The notes beneath the pieces were generated by a model that was not told the DNA's origin, did no database searches, and worked only from the letters and a program-made list of their open reading frames with translations. 24,570 bases of DNA from a virus. The stretch lies in IMG/VR virus record IMGVR_UViG_3300017991_003087, positions 1 through 24,570 of that record; one strand, given 5' to 3'. The translations under genes were made by a program, and so were the position numbers. Positions within the stretch are counted from its first letter, which is position 1. Every line of letters starts with the position of its first letter. Of the stretch, positions 6,861 to 18,756 are shown piece after piece.

Positions 6861-8060
6861 ATGCCTGTCAACTACGCCGCATTTCGACGCACGCTCATCG
6901 AAGTCCAGAAGAGCCACGGCGTTGAGCGGGGGCCGTGCTCGAGCAACACCGGCGCCTATTGCCGGGCACGAGCGAAGCTGCCGGAGACGGTCATCCGACG
7001 TCTCACTCTGGAACTGGCCGACGGCTGCCGGGAGCAGGCCGGCAAGACGTGGCTGTGGCACGGCCGTCACGTTCAGATGGTCGACGGCACGACCGTCAGT
7101 ATGCCCGACACGAAGGCGAACCAAAAGGTCTATCCGCAACAGTCGCAACAGAAGGAGGGCCTCGGATTTCCGATCGCTCGGATGGTCGTGCTCCTGTCAT
7201 TGTCGACGGGCATGCTCACAGGTATGGCCATGGGGCGATACCAAGGCAAGGAGACGGGCGAGCCGGCCCTGTTGCGCGATCTGCTGGACAGGTTCAAGCC
7301 CGACGAAGTCATGTTGGCCGATCGGTACTACTGTTCGTACTTCATGATCGCCCTTCTGATGGAACGCGGCATCGATTTCGTGGTGCGTCTTCACCAACGT
7401 CGCTCGGTCGACTTTCGACGTGGCCGATCGCTGGGTACCGCCGATCAACTCCTCACATGGATGCGACCGGCCAGGCCGGAGTGGATGGACCGGGACACGT
7501 ACGATCGAATGCCTGAGTCGATCGAAGTCCGCCAGGCGCGGGTACACGTCGACGAGGCCGGCTTTCGCACCAAGTCCCTCGTCGTTGTCACCAGTTTGAC
7601 GCACGCCAAGACCTACCCCAAGGACGACATTGCGGAACTGTACCGCGCGCGTTGGCAGGTGGAATTGGACATCCGCACGATCAAGGTCACGTTGGGCATG
7701 GATATTCTGCGCTGCCGCACACCTGCCATGGTCCACCGGGAGATCTGGACGTGCCTTCTTGCATACAATCTGATCCGCCAGGCCATGCTGCAATCAGCCC
7801 GGGCGTCGGGTCTTTCGCCGCGGGAGCTGAGTTTCACGGCGGCCATGCAGTCCGTCGCCGCGAATTGGCAAGTGATAGCATTGAGCGACGGCGCCGCGGC
7901 CGACGCCCTGATCGAGGCCGCGTGGGCGACTATGGCAGATCATCTCGTCGGCAAACGCCCCGGGCGCGTGGAACCGCGTGCAGTCAAACGTCGACCGAAA
8001 GAACAGGCACTTCTGATGGAACCGAGGGCCCAAGCGAAAGCCAAGCTGCAGGCGGCTTGA
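6861..8060 (+). mobile_element. IS4-family DDE transposase, probably short at the N-terminus
   Basis: A 399-residue transposase. The catalytic triad is visible: Asp75 (QMVDGTTV), Asp154 (MLADRYY) and Glu268 within the exact IS4 signature Y261-x2-R264-x3-E268-x6-K275. A GGGGGAG ribosome site lies 4 nt before the ATG. Relatives usually carry some tens of residues more before the SxxTGAYCxARxxLP segment, which here begins already at residue 27, so the left end may be lost or the start lies in replaced DNA. Clear terminal inverted repeats were not found. GCAGTGCGATTCTC (6825-6838) and GCAGTGCCATTCGA (8087-8100) are similar but in direct orientation. It separates host-like genes from the phage block. 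Confidence 0.85.
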
Positions 8061-11134: not shown

Positions 11135-11325
11135 TGGGCGATAGCTGGGCCATTGAAACGCTGGAAATCGAGCGATACAGGCTGGTCGAGAAGCGGCGCA
11201 GAGCGATGGATGTCCCCGTCGATGGAAGGGCAAGCACCTGCTCTGATCAGGCAGACCGCCGCCGATTAGCCGGCGTCGTCAACGCGCTCAAAGTACTGAG
11301 GGGAGGCAAGGGCAGAAGCGAATGA
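11134..11325 (+). CDS. Small hypothetical phage protein
   Basis: A 63-residue, charged product. Its ATG overlaps the rusA stop and its end overlaps the helicase start by 4 bp, so it is translationally coupled in the operon. A helical stretch rich in Arg/Glu (about 8-25) is the only visible feature. No family recognised. Confidence 0.6.
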   Translation: MGDSWAIETLEIERYRLVEKRRRAMDVPVDGRASTCSDQADRRRLAGVVNALKVLRGGKGRSE

Positions 11326-13853
11326 AACTCCGCCCCTACCAAGAAGATGCTGTCGCTGCGGTGTACAGCCACCTGCGAAGTCGGAACGACAACCCGTGTG
11401 TCGTCATTCCGACAGGTGGAGGCAAGACACCCGCAATCGCGACGATCTGCCGCGACGCCGTCAAGCGATGGCGTGGTCGCGTGCTCGTGCTGGCGCACGT
11501 CAAAGAGCTGCTCGAGCAGACGGTCGACAAGTTACAGCAGATCGCGCCCGATCTGTGGGGACAAGTCGGTGCGTACTCGGCCGGCCTGAAAAGTCGGGAC
11601 ACCGAGCAGCCGATCATCGTAGCCGGAATCCAGTCTGTCTACAAGCGTGCCTGCGAACTGGATGGGTTCGACCTCATCATCATCGACGAGTGCTTTGTAG
11701 AAGGGACACTCGTAGCCACACCGGCAGGCGATGTCCCGATCGAACAAATACAGCCAGGCACATATGTCTACAACGCGACCGGTATTGGCCAAGTGGAGGC
11801 TCTGTCTGCGAAGTGCTCGGGCAACCTTGTCACTTTGGAGTATGACGATGGAACAACAATCACATGCACGGCCAACCATCCAATCTGCACCGAATCAGGA
11901 TGGAAGCAGGCGGGCACCTTGGCAGTCGGTTCGATGGCGTTCGGCCTCGAAGTTGTGCGAATGCTGCGGGGTGCTGTTCCGTCCTCGAACCAAGCTGCGG
12001 TCGGACGGGCGTATGACCGTCCAAAAAGAGAAGCTCTGGCTGAAGCAGAGGTACTGCTCAATATCCTGCTCCAAGATCCACGACAATCCCATGAGGTCGG
12101 CAGAAGTACGACAGAGAGTCAGCAGTACGTTGAAGGCGACGGGGCATGCCCCGAGAGTTCGCGGCGGCAACGGCCGGTTGACGAAGGAGCAGAAGGCGAT
12201 GCTGGAAATCTTGGGGGAGGGCTGGATCGCAGAGCATGCGGTCGGCGTTCGGGGCCACAAGAGCAAACGCCTGCCGAAATGCCTGAAGATGGACTTGGCG
12301 AACCCGTCGCTGATGATGGGGATAGAGTTGGACGGCAACAGTCACCAGGCAGCGAACCGAAGAGAACAGGATGCGAGGAAAAACGTATTCCTAGCGCAAA
12401 ACGGCTGGTCCGTATTTCGCATCACCAACGCACGCGCCGGCGAGTTGTGTTCAACCTGCAAGTCAAGGGACATCCTTCTTACTTCGCTAACGGAATTCTA
12501 GTCCACAATTGCCATTTGATTCCCCCGAACGGCGAGGGCATGTACCGCACTTTTCTGGCCGACGCCGAGGCTGTCAACCCGAAGGTGCGTGTGATCGGCA
12601 TGACGGCCACGCCGTTCCGCATGACCAGCGGGCTGATCTGCGGCAAAGACAACATCCTCAACCACGTGTGCTACGAGATCGGGGTCAAGGAGCTGATCGA
12701 CGCGGGCTTTCTATCCCCCTTGGTCAGCAAGGGCACCAAGAAGCCGATCGATCTGTCCGGCTTGCACGTTCGAGGGGGGGAATTCATCGCGAGCGAGGCC
12801 GAGGAGTTGATGGACTCGGTTGTCGAGCAAGCGTGCCGAGAGATCGTCGCGCAGGCGCATGACCGCAAGTCCGTGCTCATCTTCACAAGCGGCGTCAAAC
12901 ACGGCAACCACGTAGCCGACGTGCTGCGCAAGAACCACGGGATCGAGGCCGGGACGGTCTTCGGCGACACGTTGCCGCACGTGCGAGAGCAGGTGCTGCG
13001 GGACTTCGTCGAGGGCAGGCTCAAGTATCTGGTCAACGTCAATGTGCTGACCACCGGGTTCGACGCGCCGAACATCGACTGTGTGGCGCTGCTTCGGCCG
13101 ACCATGTCGCCGGGGCTTTACTACCAGATGGTGGGTCGAGGGTTCCGGCTGTCCCCGAGCAAAAGCGATTGTCTCGTCCTGGATTTCGGCGGCAACGTAC
13201 TGAGGCACGGGCCGGTAGATGACATCCAGGTACGAGAGACAAACGGCACACGCGAAGGCGGCGAGAGCGGCGAGCCGGCCGCGAAGGCCTGCCCCGAGTG
13301 TCAAACGCTGCTCGCGACCGGGTTCCTGGCGTGCCCCACGTGCGGCTACATGTTCCCGATCCCGGAAGACGCCGGCCACGACGGCGAAGCGTCGACACTC
13401 GGCATCCTGTCGGGCCAAACGACGATTGAAGAGCAATACGTCGGAAGCGTCGCCTACGACGTGCACCACAAGAAGGATGCGCCGCCTGACGCACCGACAA
13501 CGATGCGTGTCACGTACTACGCCGGTCACCTCTACAGCGGGGCTCGCACGTCAGAATGGGTCTGCTTTGAGCACACCGGATGGCCGCGGCAGAAAGCGGA
13601 ATCCTGGTGGCGCAGGCGATCCGACTCGCCTGTCCCTGAGACAACAAGAAAGGCAGTGGACCTGGCGACCGAAGGCGCCGTTGCCGAGCCTACGGCGATT
13701 ACCGTCAGCAGCACAGCCGGTCAGAAGTTCGACAAAATCGTAGGCTATGAGCTGGGGCCGAAACCCGAGTGGCGCGAGCCCGGCGAAGACCCGTACGAAG
13801 GACCGCCGCGGACCGGCCTGGTGACCGTCGACCTCGAGGATGTACCTTTTTGA
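11322..13853 (+). CDS. Phage superfamily II DNA helicase interrupted by an intein
   Basis: An 843-residue frame. Residues 1-123 and 397-843 are the helicase, 570 residues once the intein is removed. Motif I is VIPTGGGKT (27-35). Motif II is split: DE ends the N-extein and CH begins the C-extein, giving DECH after splicing. Motif III is GMTATPFR, motif V is NVLTTGFDAPNID and motif VI is QMVGRGFR. A zinc ribbon (CPEC...CPTC) follows, and then a C-terminal region of unknown role. The enzyme probably unwinds DNA in phage replication, next to RusA and the primase. Because motif II is destroyed by the insertion, the unspliced protein should have no ATPase activity. Confidence 0.88.
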   Translation: MKLRPYQEDAVAAVYSHLRSRNDNPCVVIPTGGGKTPAIATICRDAVKRWRGRVLVLAHVKELLEQTVDKLQQIAPDLWGQVGAYSAGLKSRDTEQPIIVAGIQSVYKRACELDGFDLIIIDECFVEGTLVATPAGDVPIEQIQPGTYVYNATGIGQVEALSAKCSGNLVTLEYDDGTTITCTANHPICTESGWKQAGTLAVGSMAFGLEVVRMLRGAVPSSNQAAVGRAYDRPKREALAEAEVLLNILLQDPRQSHEVGRSTTESQQYVEGDGACPESSRRQRPVDEGAEGDAGNLGGGLDRRACGRRSGPQEQTPAEMPEDGLGEPVADDGDRVGRQQSPGSEPKRTGCEEKRIPSAKRLVRISHHQRTRRRVVFNLQVKGHPSYFANGILVHNCHLIPPNGEGMYRTFLADAEAVNPKVRVIGMTATPFRMTSGLICGKDNILNHVCYEIGVKELIDAGFLSPLVSKGTKKPIDLSGLHVRGGEFIASEAEELMDSVVEQACREIVAQAHDRKSVLIFTSGVKHGNHVADVLRKNHGIEAGTVFGDTLPHVREQVLRDFVEGRLKYLVNVNVLTTGFDAPNIDCVALLRPTMSPGLYYQMVGRGFRLSPSKSDCLVLDFGGNVLRHGPVDDIQVRETNGTREGGESGEPAAKACPECQTLLATGFLACPTCGYMFPIPEDAGHDGEASTLGILSGQTTIEEQYVGSVAYDVHHKKDAPPDAPTTMRVTYYAGHLYSGARTSEWVCFEHTGWPRQKAESWWRRRSDSPVPETTRKAVDLATEGAVAEPTAITVSSTAGQKFDKIVGYELGPKPEWREPGEDPYEGPPRTGLVTVDLEDVPF
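11691..12509 (+). other. Intein in helicase motif II (273 aa)
   Basis: Block A begins with Cys1 (CFVEGTLVATPAGDVPIE). Block B is TITCTANHPI with Thr60-x-x-His63. Then comes GWKQAGTLAVGS. Block F is VVFNLQVKGHPSYFA, and block G is NGILVHN with the penultimate His and terminal Asn; the +1 residue is Cys. All catalytic residues for protein splicing are present. Residues about 85-245 of the intein frame are low in recognisable structure (rich in Arg, Gln, Glu, Gly, Pro), because this DNA is read in another frame as an endonuclease. The element can be seen as a mini-intein with an out-of-frame insert. Confidence 0.88.
11848..12501 (+). CDS. Zinc-finger plus Vsr/DUF559-like homing endonuclease, nested in the intein in the +1 frame
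   Basis: The frame is open from 11731 to the TAG at 12499-12501. From about 11953 it encodes a clear nuclease: CECCGVLF...RYCSISCS (zinc finger CxxC...CxxxC), a helical linker, then GEGWIAEHAVG, MDLANPSLMMGIELDGNSH, RREQDARKNVFLAQNGW and SVFRITN. The strand with ELDG..H, followed by Arg..Asp and GW.VFRI, is typical of Vsr/DUF559-type nucleases, some of which are homing enzymes of inteins and introns. The start is uncertain: ATG 11848 has GGAG 7 nt upstream, TTG 11953 begins the homology, and ATG 12013 would lose the zinc finger. It overlaps the helicase-intein frame throughout and ends 8 nt before the intein does. Confidence 0.75.
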   Translation: MEQQSHARPTIQSAPNQDGSRRAPWQSVRWRSASKLCECCGVLFRPRTKLRSDGRMTVQKEKLWLKQRYCSISCSKIHDNPMRSAEVRQRVSSTLKATGHAPRVRGGNGRLTKEQKAMLEILGEGWIAEHAVGVRGHKSKRLPKCLKMDLANPSLMMGIELDGNSHQAANRREQDARKNVFLAQNGWSVFRITNARAGELCSTCKSRDILLTSLTEF

Positions 13854-17703: not shown

Positions 17704-18756
17704 ATGCTTGATTTTGCCGAAATGCCTAAGGATAAGCTGGCCGCCTGGCTGAGGGCAGCGGATGGCGGGGCGATCGGAGAGTGGAATCGGTACCGTGGTA
17801 AGAATGTCGAATGGGCGCCGGATCTCAATGGGGCGAACCTCGCCGGGGCGAATCTCGAAGGGGCGTTTCTCGAAGGGGCGAATCTCGAAGGGGCGTTTCT
17901 CGAAGGGGCGGACCTCGACGGGGCGGACCTCAGGAAGACGTACCTCAGGTGGGCGAACCTCCGCGGGGCGATCCTCGACGGGGCGGACCTCGTCGGGGCG
18001 AAACTCGAATGGGCGAACCTCGAAGGGGCGTTTCTCGAAGGGGCGAACCTCGCCGGGGCGGTTTGCCATTGGACCGCCTTCATCAACCTCGACCTGAGCC
18101 GGACCCTCGGCCTTAATGAAATCCGGCACAACGGCCCGTCGTCCATCGGCACCGACACGCTGTCACGCTCCAACGGCAGACTGCCGGATGCGTTCCTGCG
18201 CGGGTGCGGCCTCAAGCCCTGGGAAGTCACGTTCGCCAGGATCTATGACCCCGATCTTCCGGCGTCTGACATTCTCAACCTGACGACCGAAGCCTTCCGC
18301 CAACGCACAGAGGGCCCCATCTTCATCGGGGGCGTGTTCATCTCGTACAGCCACGACGACGCTGATTTCGCCGACAAGGTCTACAACCGGTTGTCCAAGA
18401 CAGGTGCGAACGCCTGGCTCGATCGACATGACGCCGTGGCCGGCCCGCTGGCACGGCAGGTGGTCGACTCGATCAGGCTGCATGACATCGTGCTGCTTGT
18501 TCTCTCGAAGTCATCAATTGACAGCGATTGGGTCGACTACGAACTGGAGAAGGCACTCCAGAAAGAAGTCGACGAGGCTCGGGACGTTCTGTGCCCGGTC
18601 GCTCTGGATGATGCGTGGGAGGCAAAAACGTCCGGGCCCAGTCATTGGCGCAGGGTTCGCGAGAAGCTGGTCCTCGACTTCTCCGACCCCGAGGCGTTCG
18701 ATGCCGAGTTCGACAAGCTTCTCGAGGGGCTCAAGAAGTACTATCCGCCCAAGTGA
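17704..18756 (+). CDS. Pentapeptide-repeat - TIR domain protein
   Basis: A 350-residue protein with GGAGAG 6 nt before the ATG. Residues 40-120 are about sixteen pentapeptides (ANLEG, AFLEG, ADLDG), a beta-helix. A linker of ~85 residues follows. The TIR domain starts at about 210 (GVFISYSHDDADFA) and contains the W276-x3-E280 motif (DWVDYELEKAL) with the glutamate expected for NAD+ cleavage. TIR NADases are effectors of several anti-phage systems. Placed between replication and packaging genes of a phage, it looks like a cargo gene against competing phages, with the repeat domain perhaps sensing or oligomerising; that role is inferred. No separate promoter was identified in the 75-bp gap before it. 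Confidence 0.85.
   Translation: MLDFAEMPKDKLAAWLRAADGGAIGEWNRYRGKNVEWAPDLNGANLAGANLEGAFLEGANLEGAFLEGADLDGADLRKTYLRWANLRGAILDGADLVGAKLEWANLEGAFLEGANLAGAVCHWTAFINLDLSRTLGLNEIRHNGPSSIGTDTLSRSNGRLPDAFLRGCGLKPWEVTFARIYDPDLPASDILNLTTEAFRQRTEGPIFIGGVFISYSHDDADFADKVYNRLSKTGANAWLDRHDAVAGPLARQVVDSIRLHDIVLLVLSKSSIDSDWVDYELEKALQKEVDEARDVLCPVALDDAWEAKTSGPSHWRRVREKLVLDFSDPEAFDAEFDKLLEGLKKYYPPK
17824..18060 (+). repeat. 15-bp tandem repeat encoding pentapeptides
   Basis: The DNA repeats GGGGCGAACCTCGAA-like units about sixteen times, with some 30-bp blocks exactly duplicated (GGGGCGAATCTCGAA next to GGGGCGTTTCTCGAA). The near identity at DNA level, not just protein level, points to recent expansion. Confidence 0.8.

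Follow-up and report, generated by a model that had tools for sequence, protein, structure and literature searches.

In textbook inteins, the endonuclease is a fused domain. The element described here shares with classical inteins (e.g., PI-SceI) the splicing blocks, the placement of an endonuclease between blocks B and F, a conserved active-site motif as insertion site and apparent mobility. However, the classical endonuclease is an in-frame fusion that leaves the precursor with the excised intein, whereas the one found here lies in a different frame and, on the evidence below, is separately initiated. Dassa et al. reportedly described, in 2009, Vsr-like homing endonucleases in fractured genes between split-intein halves. 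The resemblance lies in a nuclease of Vsr-like fold encoded as a separate ORF between the intein halves; in the present group, unlike in such fractured genes, the host frame is continuous, and splicing would therefore be in cis. Group I introns with a free-standing endonuclease ORF (I-Bth0305I, EDxHD family) likewise harbor a separately translated endonuclease within a splicing element, and the nuclease folds are similar (Z 9.1), but our element would splice at the protein level.

The closest published architecture appears to be that of mycobacteriophage methylases with the ShiLan domain and the Pacc40 insertion (Arsenault, Gosselin and Gogarten 2025, PMC11855218). There too, a phage gene carries a stop-free insertion that keeps the frame, is sporadically distributed and has a homing-type nuclease in another frame, thought to be separately translated. 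In contrast to the present locus, the nuclease there is of the HNH type and the host gene encodes a methylase; a ribosome-binding site was not found and splicing blocks are missing, the authors stating that the insertion is not an intein. The paper cites Gosselin et al. 2025 (bioRxiv 10.1101/2025.01.02.630785) on overlapping reading frames in actinobacteriophages, a preprint that, going by this citation, may overlap with the present finding and is the main prior-art risk. One member of the present group has already been noted as an intein: the authors of the phage phi673 genome recorded a putative intein in gp43 that is missing from phi674 (PMC6132909), and the available part of their paper does not mention the out-of-frame nuclease alongside it.

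The helicase intein and its nested nuclease gene

The window analyzed here is a 24,570-nt stretch of virus DNA (IMG/VR virus record IMGVR_UViG_3300017991_003087, positions 1 to 24,570). Its + strand carries an ORF at 11322-13853 whose domain matches identify a RadD/ResIII-type SF2 helicase, with a precursor of 843 amino acids. The N-extein (11322-11690, +) and C-extein (12510-13853, +) flank a 273-residue intein (11691-12509, +), which sits in helicase motif II (DE|C ... HN|CH). Splicing blocks A, B, F and G are read directly in the helicase frame (DE|CFVEGTLV ... NHP ... VFNLQVKGHPSYFANGILVHN|CH), and this frame has no stop anywhere in 11322-13853, the intein included; the initial annotation had the coordinates and phases of the intein right, as well as the absence of stops across the nuclease. 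The assignment draws on the Pfam Intein_splicing profile (E 2.4e-7, below Pfam's own cut-off), the TIGR01443 intein C-terminus profile, the four blocks, an AlphaFold-predicted HINT fold and the boundary features C1, TANH in block B and VHN|C.

Within the host frame, the N-terminal splicing part (blocks A and B, 11691-11939, +) matches our own IntN profile with an E of 7.7e-29 and the C-terminal part (blocks F and G) occupies 12435-12509 (+). AlphaFold models these ends as an ordered HINT domain (pLDDT 94-98), whose best structural match is the gp41-1 intein (TM-score 0.86 on target). The intervening linker (11940-12434, +) is open, its protein sequence is not conserved and the model is mostly disordered there, with pLDDT mostly <50 for residues 134-228; the host-frame loop over the nuclease is thus predicted to be disordered. 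The insert is absent from most helicases related to that of the window. A self-splicing intron, removed by RNA splicing, was rejected because no known ribozyme family gave a credible score in the window in Rfam: within 11500-12700 there was no group I or group II intron match, the sole match being a sub-threshold snoRNA (E 0.41). Two helicase relatives (L044:1818-4490 and L045:2990-5680) carry another, in-frame insertion, located after LYYQM and before the CGRGFR motif.

The nuclease is encoded in the +1 frame, where the ORF contains a DUF559 match (E 5.6e-6, above Pfam's cut-off), as supported by nested relatives. It had been placed at about 11953-12501. The frame and the end hold, but the start has to be moved: a search for a ribosome start in this frame points to the ATG at 11848, behind the Shine-Dalgarno-like GGAG at 11837-11840 (+; duplex energy -5.9 kcal/mol), as the most likely start, with TTG 11953 as an alternative. 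If so, the gene spans 11848-12501 (+), and the nuclease therefore has 217 amino acids and overlaps block B too. Its TAG stop (12499-12501) falls within the CTA-GTC (Leu-Val) codons that precede the intein's C-terminal His-Asn.

The nuclease harbors a Cys4 zinc finger (11956-12069, +; cysteine codons 11956, 11965, 12055 and 12067) and a catalytic core (12292-12372, +) formed by Asp 12292, Glu 12325, Asp 12331, His 12343 and Asp 12370. Among 41 sequences the first cysteine pair is invariant and the second at least 90% conserved, and the core residues are invariant except Asp 12331, which is at least 90% conserved. A DUF559 match was present in 8/8 members checked. In the AlphaFold model (pLDDT 89.5), the five conserved core residues (Asp, Glu, Asp, His and Asp) sit in a predicted PD-(D/E)XK-like fold. 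Structural comparison retrieved the DUF559 protein 3hrl (Z 9.8, E 2.5e-11), I-Bth0305I (3r3p, Z 9.1) and Vsr (Z 8.9), and the core aligns with those of 3hrl and I-Bth0305I. The modeled fold is thus DUF559-like and near the homing endonuclease I-Bth0305I and Vsr.

Elsewhere, the window encodes an NB-ARC/DUF7779 protein with TPR repeats (3-1857, -), truncated by the contig end and of cellular or defence-like appearance, and a protein with pentapeptide repeats and a fused TIR domain (17704-18756, +; TIR_2 E 1e-21) that has a weak Thoeris ThsB match. A DDE_Tnp_1 transposase gene (6861-8060, +) separates the non-phage-like from the phage-like part of the contig.

Relatives, reading-frame phase and selection

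A first round of helicase and nuclease scans of viral contigs yielded two relatives with the same layout, one in the same helicase (L003) and one in an SNF2-type helicase (L002). Matches from tblastn came from the Vibrio phage isolates CP-T1, 104E43.1, 159E43-1b, 1.088.O and 1.194.O, Corynebacterium phage phi673 and Pseudomonas phage MR14, and in all these genomes the nuclease is +1 relative to the annotated CDS. A blastn search of phages with the intein DNA gave no match, so every relative stems from protein searches; as these relied on nuclease motifs only, an open host frame was not selected for. From a first profile scan 80 of 216 returned relatives were kept, and the first set had phase +1 in 90/90 loci, all with intein ends. 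A second profile scan added 80 further relatives and three genome contigs, with 81/83 at +1 and two free-standing. Two of the three genome-contig loci, Kribbella DUF559 genes counted among these 81, lack an intein end and were set aside as unrelated.

Removal of redundancy at 90% identity left 113 nucleases, 111 nested at +1 (the window's included) and 2 free-standing; in-frame or split relatives were looked for among these 113 and none was found. At the sequence level, an intein with its nuclease encoded in another frame is thereby confirmed for the window and 110 further non-redundant loci. The initial annotation had offered two readings of this arrangement, and the survey separates them: a free-standing nuclease housed in the loop of an intein fits what is seen, while an intermediate between contiguous and split inteins finds no split or fractured relative in its favor. 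The recurrence of the layout in more than 100 distinct phage genes indicates that it is a real, widespread type of mobile element, not a sequencing error.

Both intein ends are present in 62/62 non-redundant loci, and 59/62 insertions come after DE, with Cys 1. Wherever a family was found, the host genes tested are SF2 helicases (ResIII, SNF2, DEAD). The composite inteins occur in phage DNA of 34 to 72% GC, and the phage records examined annotate a single helicase or hypothetical CDS over the nuclease. In two loci (L108 and L113) composite inteins follow DEAH and DEAQ, not DE, and the target position is thus not fully fixed.

To obtain the number of host-frame stops expected, synonymous codons of the nuclease were resampled according to host codon usage, with the nuclease protein left unchanged. 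The window's overlap would be expected to contain 5.2 such stops and contains 0 (P of none 0.004). Over the overlap in the 62 non-redundant loci, 0 are observed versus 486-616 expected, with 842 stops in the third frame; since related loci are counted as separate in these statistics, the combined probability is not the product of independent tests. Across 111 loci the host frame has 0 stops in 17,868 codons. This deficit argues that the host frame is read through.

Substitutions tell which frame is constrained as protein. In eight disjoint close pairs, 91/95/289 substitutions fall at nuclease codon positions 1/2/3, and pN/pS, in a simple form that ignores interactions of overlapping frames, is 0.20 in the nuclease frame and 0.17 in IntN, as against 1.09 when the same DNA is read in the host frame; the codon-position counts and ratios both favor the nuclease frame. 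Compared with L003, L054, L056 and L057, all nested, the window is 44-49% identical in the nuclease and 52-58% in the intein ends, with 30-31% in the host-frame linker. Judged by these comparisons, purifying selection acts on the nuclease frame and the intein ends but not on the host frame across the nuclease; the latter appears to be a passenger merely kept stop-free, with protein constraint in the overlap on the nuclease alone. The proposal that two proteins are overprinted therefore stands as to the two open frames and fails as to protein constraint on the host frame, and homologues show the opposite of a conserved frame 0 over an unconserved +1 frame: it is the +1 frame that is conserved and the host-frame middle that is not. 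With selection on the nuclease, an unconstrained linker and a middle modeled as disordered, the overprinting is asymmetric.

Start signals and empty sites

At many loci a +1-frame stop shortly before the zinc finger is followed by an ATG behind a purine-rich site, as in L125 (AAAAAGGAGATATTGTTTATG) and L089 (CAGGAGGCATCCGATG), and in several the stop codon lies immediately 5' of the ATG. Shine-Dalgarno enrichment relative to control ATGs was weak over all 62 loci (p 0.015), because starts are unclear in an 18-locus L002-like group; with this group left out, a step taken only after the all-loci result was seen, the median duplex energy is -5.9 versus -2.4 kcal/mol at control ATGs (p 8e-6). In the window's subfamily, the AGG/GAG core of the site is kept in 7/7 members despite different encoded amino acids. 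There the nuclease ATG arises from Asp/Asn-Gly codons of the host frame, and the T-ending GAT/AAT codon needed to form it is used in 7/7 versus 2.4 expected; other inteins show the T-ending codon at the background rate (6/23 versus 6.5 expected). Production of the nuclease by internal initiation is the best-supported reading of these signals.

The phage pair phi673 and phi674 provides an empty site. Their flanks are 99.2% identical, and what phi674 is missing corresponds precisely to the 906-nt intein. Immediately after the site, phi674 reads GTGCATCAC and phi673 TGTCATCAT, a base difference that turns Val (phi674) into the Cys (phi673) required for splicing. This difference looks like a co-conversion footprint, as expected under homing. 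Intein-less counterpart proteins are phi674 gp40, versus phi673 gp43, and those of Vibrio phages with DEAHH or DESHH. One Vibrio helicase family shows, at the same site, no insert, an ~150-residue mini-intein without nuclease, or the composite element, and the two free-standing nuclease relatives (L176 and L183) lie directly upstream of intein-less helicases. Nuclease distances correlate with intein-end distances (r 0.40, p <= 0.001), which indicates that both parts traveled together in good part.

Further arrangements were observed around these sites. In L183, one surplus base at the DE|xHH site (L183:4941-4965, GATGAACGGACACCACGCAGC) disrupts the helicase downstream of the free-standing nuclease, either as a repair scar from nuclease cutting or as a sequencing error. 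In Vibrio phage K459 (L224:78-1376), a free-standing T5orf172 (GIY-YIG-type) endonuclease gene is located directly 3' of a helicase gene whose mini-intein has no nuclease of its own, a candidate for collaborative homing. Vibrio phages PS65A.1 (L135) and 13VV501A (L139) carry, besides the motif II mini-intein, a second intein at Walker A (GK|T), large in the former and small in the latter.

Proposed mechanism, rival readings and significance

We consider it very probable that these elements are mobile inteins with a nested, separately translated homing endonuclease, which we call composite mobile inteins. The conserved phase, the open host frame, selection on the nuclease and the intein ends, the start signals, the empty sites and the co-conversion footprint can be read from the DNA itself; splicing, nuclease translation, cleavage and homing we infer. 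Ribosomes from the helicase start codon would read through to give a single precursor. Both intein ends would fold into its splicing (HINT) domain, leaving the middle as a loop that is free of stops and disordered for the most part, and splicing would take out the entire intein to restore an intact DECH motif. Other ribosomes would initiate within the intein, one base out of phase, at the ATG with its own Shine-Dalgarno site, to produce a free zinc-finger/DUF559 nuclease. Motif II of helicase genes that lack the intein would be cleaved by this nuclease, and repair would copy the intein into them.

Programmed +1 ribosomal frameshifting, rather than internal initiation, might make the nuclease as an N-extein-IntN-nuclease fusion. 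The invariable +1 phase and the weak start signals at some L002-like loci would suit it. However, common descent explains the constant phase, and in many loci the +1-frame stop 0-12 codons 5' of the zinc finger, in some directly before the ATG, leaves almost no space for a frameshift. The Shine-Dalgarno enrichment and selected start codons also fit initiation, and the release-factor-type slippery motif CTTTGAC has no match on the + strand of the window's intein. Frameshifting is thus quite improbable as the route to the nuclease, though it could be an additional source of minor product. A different proposal, that the intein is real but its nested nuclease is a passenger that serves a purpose other than homing, for instance against competing phages, draws on the occurrence of DUF559 domains in defence proteins (weak Hhe and ProA matches); it is unlikely given the position within the intein, the sporadic distribution, the empty sites with their co-conversion footprint, the fold near I-Bth0305I and the free-standing relatives that directly adjoin intein-less helicase genes.

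Since the nuclease gene already comes with a start and a stop, a fractured layout would result from a stop in the host frame together with a restart for the C-terminal half, and the nuclease's Vsr-like fold is that reportedly found in the nucleases of Dassa et al. Nevertheless, with 0 split relatives among the 113 non-redundant nucleases and a host frame actively kept open, a transitional stage toward a split intein or fractured gene is very improbable. An error of sequencing or assembly, or an intein in decay whose two indels compensate each other, has nothing in its favor beyond the unusual layout, and the homologous sequences have already refuted it: the phase is identical in 111 non-redundant loci, independently sequenced isolates among them, and both the nuclease and the intein ends are under purifying selection.

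As to the origin of composite mobile inteins, a tentative scenario, to which we give somewhat less than even odds, is that a free-standing DUF559 nuclease that cut helicase motif II entered, out of frame, a mini-intein at the same site. This would have founded a large unnamed class of phage mobile elements, in which two selfish elements are locked together by dual-read DNA. All three states, nuclease alone, mini-intein alone and composite, are extant. Were this origin true, the intein would hide the nuclease gene from the host protein and the nuclease would spread the intein, with the host frame over the nuclease persisting merely as a stop-free loop.

The phi673/phi674 pair makes the homing question directly testable on C. 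glutamicum. Annotation pipelines overlook the nested nuclease. Because one of the frames is bound only to remain free of stops, the evolution of overlapping frames becomes measurable here. The findings indicate that inteins in phage DNA can house a homing-type nuclease as an overlapping gene of its own, an arrangement both widespread and stable, and the composite inteins suggest a concrete route by which inteins may gain a nuclease.
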